From a virus, in IMG/VR virus record IMGVR_UViG_3300026382_000006, positions 62,001 through 126,000 of that record: a stretch of DNA of 64,000 bases; one strand, given 5' to 3'. The position numbers were made by a program, and so were the translations under genes. Positions 59,787 through 62,353 of the stretch are shown here, piece after piece; position 1 is the first letter of the stretch; every line of letters starts with the position of its first letter. The notes beneath the pieces are model-generated. The model was not told the DNA's origin. It did not search any database and saw nothing but the letters and a program-made list of their open reading frames with translations.

Positions 59787-60194
59787 TTAATCATATTCTT
59801 TGTAGTCGTTTAAAATATAACAAATTGCTCTGGCTTGATTGATAGATGTGACTCCGAACATATCTGTAATTGTCTTACCTTTTGCTTTATTTTTTATTTC
59901 TTTTAGCAATGTAGGATTTTCTTTAAAATATTGTTCCCATAGTATTACATACTCTTTAAATAATTCATTTTCTGTCTTATTATTTAATGGCGGTTTACCT
60001 TTAGCTTCTTTCCAATGTTTTACTTTATCTCTGTAACCCTTAATATCTAGTTGGTAAATTTCTTCTATGGATTTATTATTATAACTACTTAAACGAGCAT
60101 AGAGAGCTGAATATCTTTTATCACCTTTACTGGATACTTCGTAATAGGGTTCACCTCTATTTACTCTCCTAGCCCATTTGTAAATTACTTTTTT
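59787..60194 (-). CDS. Frame without a normal start: possible -1 frameshift extension of DNA polymerase
   Basis: 135 open codons in the frame -1 to the polymerase, ending TAA at 59787. No ATG, GTG or TTG occurs until late in it. The sequence (KWARRVNRGEPYYEVSSKGD, SIEEIYQLDIKGYRDKVKHW, EAKGKPPLNNKTENELFKEY, GVTSINQARAICYIL) is plainly coding and resembles a small conserved phage protein I have seen as a free-standing gene. It begins beside the A_AAA_AAG heptamer before the polymerase stop. Options: programmed frameshift fusion, a rare start codon, or a base lost in the sequence. Confidence 0.6.
   Translation of the reverse strand, partial: KKVIYKWARRVNRGEPYYEVSSKGDKRYSALYARLSSYNNKSIEEIYQLDIKGYRDKVKHWKEAKGKPPLNNKTENELFKEYVILWEQYFKENPTLLKEIKNKAKGKTITDMFGVTSINQARAICYILNDYKEYD
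60185..60194 (-). promoter_or_regulatory. dnaX-type slippery heptamer before polymerase stop
   Basis: The minus strand reads GA_AAA_AAG followed by TAA. The heptamer A_AAA_AAG in this register is the E. coli dnaX -1 frameshift site. AAAGGA lies 6 bases upstream (an SD-like stimulator position), and a small stem (AATAG/CTATT with GG/CC, TGAA loop) lies about 30 bases downstream. Confidence 0.5.
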
Positions 60195-62353
60195 TCAGCA
60201 TCCTTTAAAAATGGTAATTCTTCGGATAATATTAAGTTTGGTTTAACATAATATCCCATGCTGTTTAAAATAATATATAACATATTACAATTATCTTTTA
60301 CTACTTTCTTAATATCTATAATATCCATTATCTCTTTAGGGAAACCTTTATTGTGTAAATTTACTAATGGAAATTTGAATGTCTTAATTTCTGTTTTGTT
60401 ATATTTTTTCATAAACTCTCTAAACTTATTAGTAAATTCTTGATCTTCTAAACTAGATAACCAATTTTCCATATCTTTTTTACTATTAATTATGGTAGGA
60501 ATTTTAACAGCCATATAAGTAGGATCAGGTGCATTACCATATTTATCTGCAAAGACATCTTGCCATAATAAATATTGTAAATAAGGAGATTTATCCATTT
60601 CTGCTTTATATGCTGTAGGTTCTTTTATTTTTTCTAATTTTAATACATTAGGGCTACCTGATTTAATTGCTTTAATAATCATTTGTTCTGCTTCTACTAC
60701 TTGTTTCAAATATTTTGTTAATGACAATTTTTCGTTTCTAGAGATAGTATCCATAATATCTCTCATCATTTTTTCAGCTAAGTCTCTTACCGGTTGGTAA
60801 GCATATGATGCTATAAGATGCACACCTTTCTTCTCTAGGTCTGGTTCTTTAAATACATTACCCTCTTGTATTCTAACATTAGCGAAATAGTGTTTGGATA
60901 CATCTGTATTTACAAATACATCCCAGAAAAATTCATTTTTCATTTGTAAATTCTTAGCTCCCTCGTAACCAATATTCATATTTGCACCTAGTACTTTAAT
61001 ATAATGGTCTATTGCTTGTGTATTAAATGTCATCACTATAGCAGTCAGACCTATTGCTGTAGAATTTATCACAGGTTTACCAAAATACCATTCTATCCAA
61101 TTTTGATATGTAGCACATGTACTATCTGTATCTGATAACACAATTACTTCTCTTAACATATCTCTTATATATGCTATAGAGATAGGAAATACCTTTGTAA
61201 CAAATAATGTCTGTATTAAGTCTTTGTAATTATGAAATACTCTTTGAGCATTTAAACCTGCTTTAGCTAAATCTATTATTACCTCATCTGGTAATTTATC
61301 TTCCCCCTCTAAAACATATTTTCTACCACGTACTATATCAGCTTTCAGATGTAGTAATAAGTTTATTATCCAATCTTCTAAAGATTTTAAGACTTCTATA
61401 GCTTGTTCGACAGTATTTATTTTTGCTTCTTTAAATAGTATACTATCTAATAACTTCCTTACAAATTCAGGATTAAATTCTCTTAGTTGGTATAAATCAT
61501 TCACATATGTAATAGCTGCTCTTTCTACGGGAGATAATCTTTTCAAAAATTCTAATATTCTATGTTCTCTATAAGTATTTCTCCAGTAATATTTACTAGA
61601 CTTTAATATTACTTTATTTAATACTTCTTCAGCTGTAGGATAATATAATTCGTACTTATCCATTATCTGTTTAAAGTTATCCATGTCTATATTTGTTACA
61701 ATAGCTGTTAAATGGTTTAATGTCACATTAGGATCTCTATAATGTCTATTACCTGTAATCATTGATTCAGATATAGCATTACCTATTCCTGATACACATC
61801 TTGTAATAGATGTTAGTGTATAGTGTGCCGATGGATTATATAGTACTGTACCTGCACTAGCATATGCTCCTGATAAACTATTGTTTTTAATTTTCATAGA
61901 TTTTTGCAATGTATTATGATAATTGGATTTTTCTTTATCACCATCCATTTTATACTTAAAAGCCAATTTTTTATGTTTAGATCTTAAGGCAATATTTTCA
62001 CTAATAAATTCAGCATGCAGTGATTTCTTCTTTTTACGATTAAAATATACTGTAAAAGATGGTACTAAAATATCATCATTCTGTTTTACATAATTTATAT
62101 ATCCTAATATAGTTGTATACTGATTATTAATTATTTTACCATCTAATGTTCTTTCCCTATATCTCACTCTAGGATTTCTAATCTGATGTTCTTGTTTTAA
62201 TTTATTTAAAACATTTTTAACTTTCTTTTTTGCTTCTTCTATAGGTAAATGATTTTGTGTTGCTATGTATTTACTAGCTTGCTCTATATAGTGGTTAATA
62301 GGATCTATATCGGTGGTATATTTATCTTTCTCTAATTTAAATACTTCAAACAT
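60185..62353 (-). CDS. Family B DNA polymerase, catalytic (palm/thumb) part, phiKZ-type
   Basis: 722 residues. Motif B is KIKNNSLSGAY with Lys154 and Asn158-Ser159; the usual Tyr of NSxYG is Ser. Motif C is VLSDTDSTC with Asp408 and Asp410. About 245 residues separate them, far more than in T4-type enzymes. No motif A (DxxSLYPS) and no 3'-5' exonuclease motifs are visible, so these must lie in a different gene or be unrecognisable here; phiKZ relatives are known to carry the proofreading domain on a separate protein. The stop follows an A_AAA_AAG heptamer. The start is the ATG at 62353 behind AAAGGAAAAAA. Confidence 0.82.
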   Translation of the reverse strand: MFEVFKLEKDKYTTDIDPINHYIEQASKYIATQNHLPIEEAKKKVKNVLNKLKQEHQIRNPRVRYRERTLDGKIINNQYTTILGYINYVKQNDDILVPSFTVYFNRKKKKSLHAEFISENIALRSKHKKLAFKYKMDGDKEKSNYHNTLQKSMKIKNNSLSGAYASAGTVLYNPSAHYTLTSITRCVSGIGNAISESMITGNRHYRDPNVTLNHLTAIVTNIDMDNFKQIMDKYELYYPTAEEVLNKVILKSSKYYWRNTYREHRILEFLKRLSPVERAAITYVNDLYQLREFNPEFVRKLLDSILFKEAKINTVEQAIEVLKSLEDWIINLLLHLKADIVRGRKYVLEGEDKLPDEVIIDLAKAGLNAQRVFHNYKDLIQTLFVTKVFPISIAYIRDMLREVIVLSDTDSTCATYQNWIEWYFGKPVINSTAIGLTAIVMTFNTQAIDHYIKVLGANMNIGYEGAKNLQMKNEFFWDVFVNTDVSKHYFANVRIQEGNVFKEPDLEKKGVHLIASYAYQPVRDLAEKMMRDIMDTISRNEKLSLTKYLKQVVEAEQMIIKAIKSGSPNVLKLEKIKEPTAYKAEMDKSPYLQYLLWQDVFADKYGNAPDPTYMAVKIPTIINSKKDMENWLSSLEDQEFTNKFREFMKKYNKTEIKTFKFPLVNLHNKGFPKEIMDIIDIKKVVKDNCNMLYIILNSMGYYVKPNLILSEELPFLKDAEKK

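Follow-up and report, generated by a model that had tools for sequence, protein, structure and literature searches.

Putative −1 frameshifting that would append a NADAR-like domain to split DNA polymerases of a phage and, separately, of phiKZ-like phages

How is a conserved domain translated when its reading frame lies directly behind a DNA polymerase gene and offers no ordinary start codon? This question is raised by one end of a gene in a 64,000-nucleotide stretch of viral DNA (hereafter, the window; positions 62,001 to 126,000 of the 186,213-base record IMGVR_UViG_3300026382_000006). The gene, PolC (60185..62353, minus strand, 722 aa), encodes the polymerase half of a split divergent family B DNA polymerase, and its zero frame ends in ...DAEKK*. 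The last codons on the minus strand read GAA (60196-60194), AAA (60193-60191), AAG (60190-60188), and the stop TAA (60187-60185), which places the slippery heptamer A_AAA_AAG (60188..60194) in the PolC register and directly against the stop, as the original prediction had stated. The −1 frame, starting ..KK-VIYKWARRVNRG.., then stays open for 135 codons (60194-59790) up to a stop at 59789-59787. In this ORF, designated P0001 (59787..60194, minus strand), the earliest in-frame ATG, GTG, or TTG is a TTG 93 codons in. Both the predicted length of the open frame and the predicted lack of a start codon near its beginning were thus confirmed.

PolC is a full-length profile match to PF20286 (divDNApol; E = 6.7e-192, 639.8 bits against a cut-off of 25.7) and also matches phrog_2927 (E = 1.4e-194); the best of the matches listed to jumbo-phage polymerases had identities of about 32-35%. 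P0001 matches phrog_9995, a family to which no function is assigned (E = 1.6e-43). Single-sequence scans with P0001 or PolC as the query gave no matches; alignments were required. Among the 54 window ORFs of at least 150 aa, PolC alone has a heptamer of the form X_XXY_YYZ as its final pre-stop heptamer, and in-register A_AAA_AAG occurs at 9 of 19,101 codon positions. The exonuclease half of the polymerase of this phage, PolN (phrog_3011, a relative of phiKZ gp82), is encoded ~67 kb from PolC, and no copy of the domain was found near it.

The PolC-type junction is known from two genomes, the window and a close relative, L263 (a 185,491-base record with 71.6% nucleotide identity to the window over PolC and the domain). 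L263 retains the junction GAAAAAAAGTAATTTACA base for base, heptamer and stop included, whereas the adjacent upstream polymerase codons have diverged; its domain frame, which lacks a canonical start, opens just five codons 5′ of the heptamer. The comparison with related phages that the original prediction had proposed therefore returned the same heptamer, stop, and frame, and no normal ATG. At this junction, 11 of 12 identical residues keep their codon, a degree of codon conservation among the highest in PolC and the domain, although not unique to the junction (another stretch keeps 13 of 14).

These data bear on the simplest explanation, namely that the A7 run was missequenced or misassembled, which would separate the frames of what is really an in-frame fusion gene, or that the domain is a decaying fragment. 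Homopolymer runs are error-prone, and a single extra A would join the two frames. However, an assembly error is very unlikely because L263, a distinct contig, keeps GAAAAAAAGTAATTTACA, with the same A7 and stop, unchanged at 72% nucleotide identity; as an independent assembly, it would need the same indel. In addition, the cultured phages phiKZ, PhiPA3, and Phabio have the −1 arrangement at CCCAAAG, which contains no long run. Between the window and L263, the domain has a dN of 0.118, far below its dS of 1.297, which indicates purifying selection on the extension as a protein. Together with the phrog_9995 match, this upholds the claim that the −1 frame is truly coding and rules against a decaying or dead downstream gene. 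We regard error or decay as hardly credible at this locus.

Domain searches located the domain directly behind the exonuclease gene PolN (gp82 in phiKZ) in phiKZ, PA7, PhiPA3, Phabio, 201phi2-1, Viktualia, HHBS36, Noxifer, and related contigs. Distinct PolN junctions in the −1 register numbered 18, which are not 18 independent events because the sequences are related by descent (those of phiKZ and PA7 being almost identical), and an in-register heptamer was present in all 18: C_CCA_AAG in 11, A_AAA_AAG in six, and G_GGA_AAG in one. Elsewhere in the PolN ORFs, with the last 40 codons of each ORF excluded, CCCAAAG, GGGAAAG, and AAAAAAG were in register at 0 of 16,478 codon positions. No ATG, GTG, or TTG lies between the heptamer and the domain core in 13 of the 18 junctions, and a GTG or ATG occurs near the right place in the other five. 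PolN lineages with A_AAA_AAG have a polymerase frame that continues 36-96 nt beyond the heptamer, and in three loci (L049, L079, and L202) the polymerase stop falls within the domain core.

The annotated start of phiKZ PHIKZ082.1 (L001:4256-4372) is 85 codons inside the domain, so the deposited gp82 locus consists of a polymerase and a shortened ORF; several other phiKZ-like records likewise start the gene late, and no polymerase–domain fusion was found in the deposited annotations examined. PolN is broken by group I introns (Rfam RF00028) in L196, L214, L215, L219 (two introns), L222, and L254, and the break in PhiPA3 (L196) and L214 is near the motif-A region (...ADLD/STYPNVS).

Runs of A can make RNA polymerase slip, and the A7 run of the window sits in an AT-rich genome; the frames might accordingly be joined by transcriptional rather than ribosomal slippage. 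Most PolN junctions, however, carry CCCAAAG or GGGAAAG, which lack a long run and are consistent with re-pairing of tRNAs, and we consider transcriptional slippage quite improbable. For E. coli, PMC4066793 reports CCCAAAG, GGGAAAG, and AAAAAAG to be the −1 motifs of highest efficiency when combined with IS911 or IS3 stimulators. The conservation in L263 and the arrangement in phiKZ-like phages support the central claim of the original prediction, that a −1 frameshift would extend the polymerase by a conserved domain at its C-terminus. From these comparisons of sequences, −1 frameshifting very likely occurs at the end of PolC in the window phage and, separately, at the end of PolN in the phiKZ family.

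The domain could instead be a separate protein, translated by termination–reinitiation from a non-canonical start near the polymerase stop (ATT in the window, ATA in phiKZ). In the window, and likewise in phages with C_CCA_AAG or G_GGA_AAG, there is little or no gap between the stop and the domain, and the window ATT overlaps the TAA stop by one base. Moreover, the sequence is TAATG in PhiPA3 and L197, and a GTG is present in HHBS36, 201phi2-1, and Viktualia. Both PolC genomes place ATT after GTA, so the comparison with L263 does not by itself weigh against an ATT start. Across the junctions, however, the codon at the would-be start varies (ATA, ATG, GTG, GTA, GTT, ACA, ACT, or ATT). A Shine–Dalgarno (SD) match of at least 5 bases precedes 41 of 54 genes in the window phage, nearly always at a spacing of 5-7 nt; the window ATT has no SD at this spacing, and the AAGGA is 15 nt from it. 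Where the polymerase stop is inside the domain core (L049, L079, and L202), a restart at the stop cannot make the domain. A separate start would also leave the distribution of in-register heptamers (18/18 at the junctions versus 0/16,478 elsewhere) unexplained. The rare start codon that had been listed as an alternative thus loses ground, and we judge reinitiation to be improbable, much as we do transcriptional slippage.

Returning to ribosomal frameshifting, we considered what might stimulate it. The original prediction had described an SD-like AAAGGA placed as in dnaX. The motif is present (60201..60206, minus strand), 6 nt 5′ of the heptamer, but the likeness to dnaX did not hold: in dnaX, the upstream SD is roughly 10 nt before the heptamer, and AAAGGA is absent from L263, so conservation of the junction does not extend to the SD-like site, which is probably not functional. 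As AAAGGA is not conserved, dnaX-like SD stimulation was rejected for the window. No downstream stimulator was found in the window, in which the fold z-score was −0.54. In a codon-conservation scan of about 200 PolN codons plus the domain in six phiKZ-like phages, conservation peaked at domain codons 8-18 (0.966 versus a mean of 0.571, sd 0.13), coinciding with a hairpin (GGAGGA/UCCUCC) that lies downstream of the heptamer by about 17 nt. A heptamer–hairpin spacing of ~17 nt is long for a classical stimulator. RNAalifold applied to ten phages of the C_CCA_AAG group did not support one common downstream stem, and minimum free energy z-scores were mixed.

In a variant of the frameshift explanation, the event would resemble that of dnaX, with an upstream SD and a stem-loop as stimulators. 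The heptamer is indeed A_AAA_AAG as in dnaX, and the purine-rich AAAGGA lies upstream of it; nevertheless, the motif is missing in L263, its spacing is 6 nt against roughly 10 nt, and the window has no stable downstream stem (z −0.54). Furthermore, frameshifting in dnaX shortens the product, whereas at PolC it would lengthen it. This variant is unlikely.

The original prediction called the appended segment a conserved accessory domain of the polymerase; its conservation was borne out, and its description is to be corrected to NADAR-like. Two AlphaFold2 models of the domain had mean pLDDT values of 95.6 (window domain) and 96.8. Compared with the Geobacter NADAR 8bat, model 1 gave a Z of 8.7 (128 aligned residues, rmsd 3.8) and model 2 a Z of 8.8 (113 aligned residues, rmsd 3.2), values just above the range (Z < 8) that can reflect a common arrangement. 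E. coli YbiA (2b3w) was matched with a Z of 6.8, and 8bat and YbiA were the sole chains with a Z of at least 2 among the 36 and 87 chains realigned. The NADAR match emerged only through VIA-align realignment: Foldseek against the PDB with the domain models gave no significant match, and hhalign of A5 against YbiA as a single sequence was unsuccessful. PF22397 (NADAR-DarT1) was weakly matched by only two domain members (E = 0.0014), and PF08719 had no match in the genome of the window at E = 0.001.

Across 65 sequences of the domain, E44, K52, and D111 are invariant. The catalytic residues of the E. coli C7 NADAR are E88, K95, and D171, corresponding to catalytic E, K, and D/E/H (PMC11543638, available text). 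E44, K52, and D111 follow this NADAR catalytic order and are candidate counterparts by motif order, with an E-to-K spacing of 8 versus 7. From the predicted models, the domain likely has a NADAR-like fold. Besides the PF22397 matches, context in favour of this assignment comes from related domains, which are fused to YspA-type SLOG in L022 and L090, with one in a Paenibacillus plasmid protein annotated as a macro-domain protein.

In the PolN tree, the domain-bearing PolNs form a single clade (support 100/100), one member of which, L214, is without the domain. On this tree, A_AAA_AAG occupies early branches, G_GGA_AAG occurs in L052, and C_CCA_AAG is found in the crown, with the deep forks within the domain-bearing clade being weakly supported. 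The PolN of the window is far outside this clade and lacks the domain, which suggests that the PolC case arose separately. Among 80 PolC loci, the domain was present at PolC in only L103 (on the same contig as L021), L263 having been added afterwards. A separate origin of the domain at PolC is thus likely, and the best reading of these sequences is that programmed −1 frameshifting arose at least twice and would equip some of the polymerase subunits with a NADAR-like domain.

Other arrangements of the domain were also observed, of which those at PolN with a +1/−2 offset or an in-frame TAG weigh against the frameshift reading. L021 (3004-5607) encodes an 867-aa in-frame fusion in which the domain forms the N-terminus of PolC. 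At residue 135 of this fusion, an internal ATG lies 6 nt behind an AAGGAG, so L021 may produce both fused and plain PolC. In L061 (2983) and L093 (2968), PolN and the domain share one frame with one TAG between them, followed by CTG or CTA, which possibly reflects stop readthrough. As a trivial cause of the in-frame TAG in L093, TAG recoding was considered and, at the scale of this locus, rejected: PolN is split there near the motif-A region, like its relatives with group I introns, although an Rfam search of L093 gave no above-threshold match. In the D6/Psa21 clade (L009, L011, L083, L084, L088, L182, L186, and L187), the domain is in the +1/−2 frame relative to PolN without a heptamer; a conserved GAA-AAG-AAG precedes it, and the would-be start is GTG, TTG, CTG, ACG, or CGG, so that −2 slippage or near-cognate starts are possibly involved. 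The domain also occurs within very long ORFs in L026, L028, L031, and L033 (1138-2121 aa seen, extending past the locus start), three of which have a DFDxD motif, reminiscent of crAss-like phage RNA polymerase proteins. At L040 (1978-3378), it forms the C-terminus of a protein weakly similar to a 5′-3′ exonuclease (PF01367, E = 0.011).

We propose that some ribosomes slip −1 at A_AAA_AAG and bypass the PolC stop, and that these ribosomes would append a 133-residue NADAR-fold (YbiA-like, ADP-ribosyl/N-glycosidase) domain. The phage would then have two products, PolC alone and a PolC–NADAR fusion, an outcome that we hold to be highly probable. The domain may act at the replication machinery on ADP-ribosylated nucleic acid (e.g., DarT1-type guanine marks) or on ADP-ribose signals. 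According to the available text of PMC11125620, NADARs strip ADP-ribose from guanine bases and act as DarT1 antitoxins; the tested E. coli and phage NADARs were active, and rescue from DarT1 was obtained only with DarT1-linked ones. Iyer and colleagues considered that phage NADARs act mostly on small ADP-ribose signals (PMC9503650, available text). A polymerase-bound NADAR would, we infer, fit nucleic-acid cleaning better than a small-signal role. A more speculative reading, which we hold to be less likely than not, is that phiKZ-like phages and distant relatives more than once evolved recoding that arms some of their polymerase or exonuclease subunits with an ADP-ribose remover, which would clear DarT1-type ADP-ribosyl guanine off the template at the fork. 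If this is true, the domain would be a repair or counter-defence device within the replisome, and the frameshift rate would determine how much of the armed form is made.

Laboratory work on nucleus-forming phages uses phiKZ and its relatives as models. If the frameshift is real, a phiKZ-like replication protein has a hidden longer form with an enzyme-like domain, the junctions constitute a natural set of frameshift signals whose heptamers are interchangeable, and phage replication machinery can be tested for a link to ADP-ribosylation-based defence. No earlier report of a polymerase–NADAR frameshift was found in the literature searched; bioRxiv and most subscription papers were outside its scope, and this absence is not proof. 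The available portions of PMC7824862, PMC9503650, PMC11125620, PMC11543638, and PMC4066793, and likewise those of PMC5009743, PMC10299810, PMC13282480, and PMC10885494, contain no such report.

Among known systems, the divergent DNA polymerase of Group 1 jumbo phages (PMC7824862, available text) is similar in that the window PolC likewise belongs to PF20286 and the exonuclease is encoded apart; that text does not mention a frameshift extension or a fused NADAR. With the NADAR superfamily (YbiA, DarT1-associated antitoxins, and phage gp30.3), the domain shares the predicted fold and a YQ motif that follows the first acidic residue, whereas it is shorter (about 125 aa), has an E-to-K spacing of 8 rather than 7, and would be tied to a DNA polymerase through recoding. 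Bacterial −1 frameshifting at X_XXA_AAG (insertion sequences, dnaX, and phage tail genes such as lambda G-GT) has the heptamers A_AAA_AAG, G_GGA_AAG, and C_CCA_AAG in common with the phage polymerases, as well as an overlapping −1 ORF and, in some products, a C-terminal extension, which for the phage polymerases is predicted. Unlike in the bacterial cases, no conserved stimulator was identified here, the site ends a replicative DNA polymerase gene, with the stop often right after the heptamer, and the phage polymerase would gain an enzyme-like domain.
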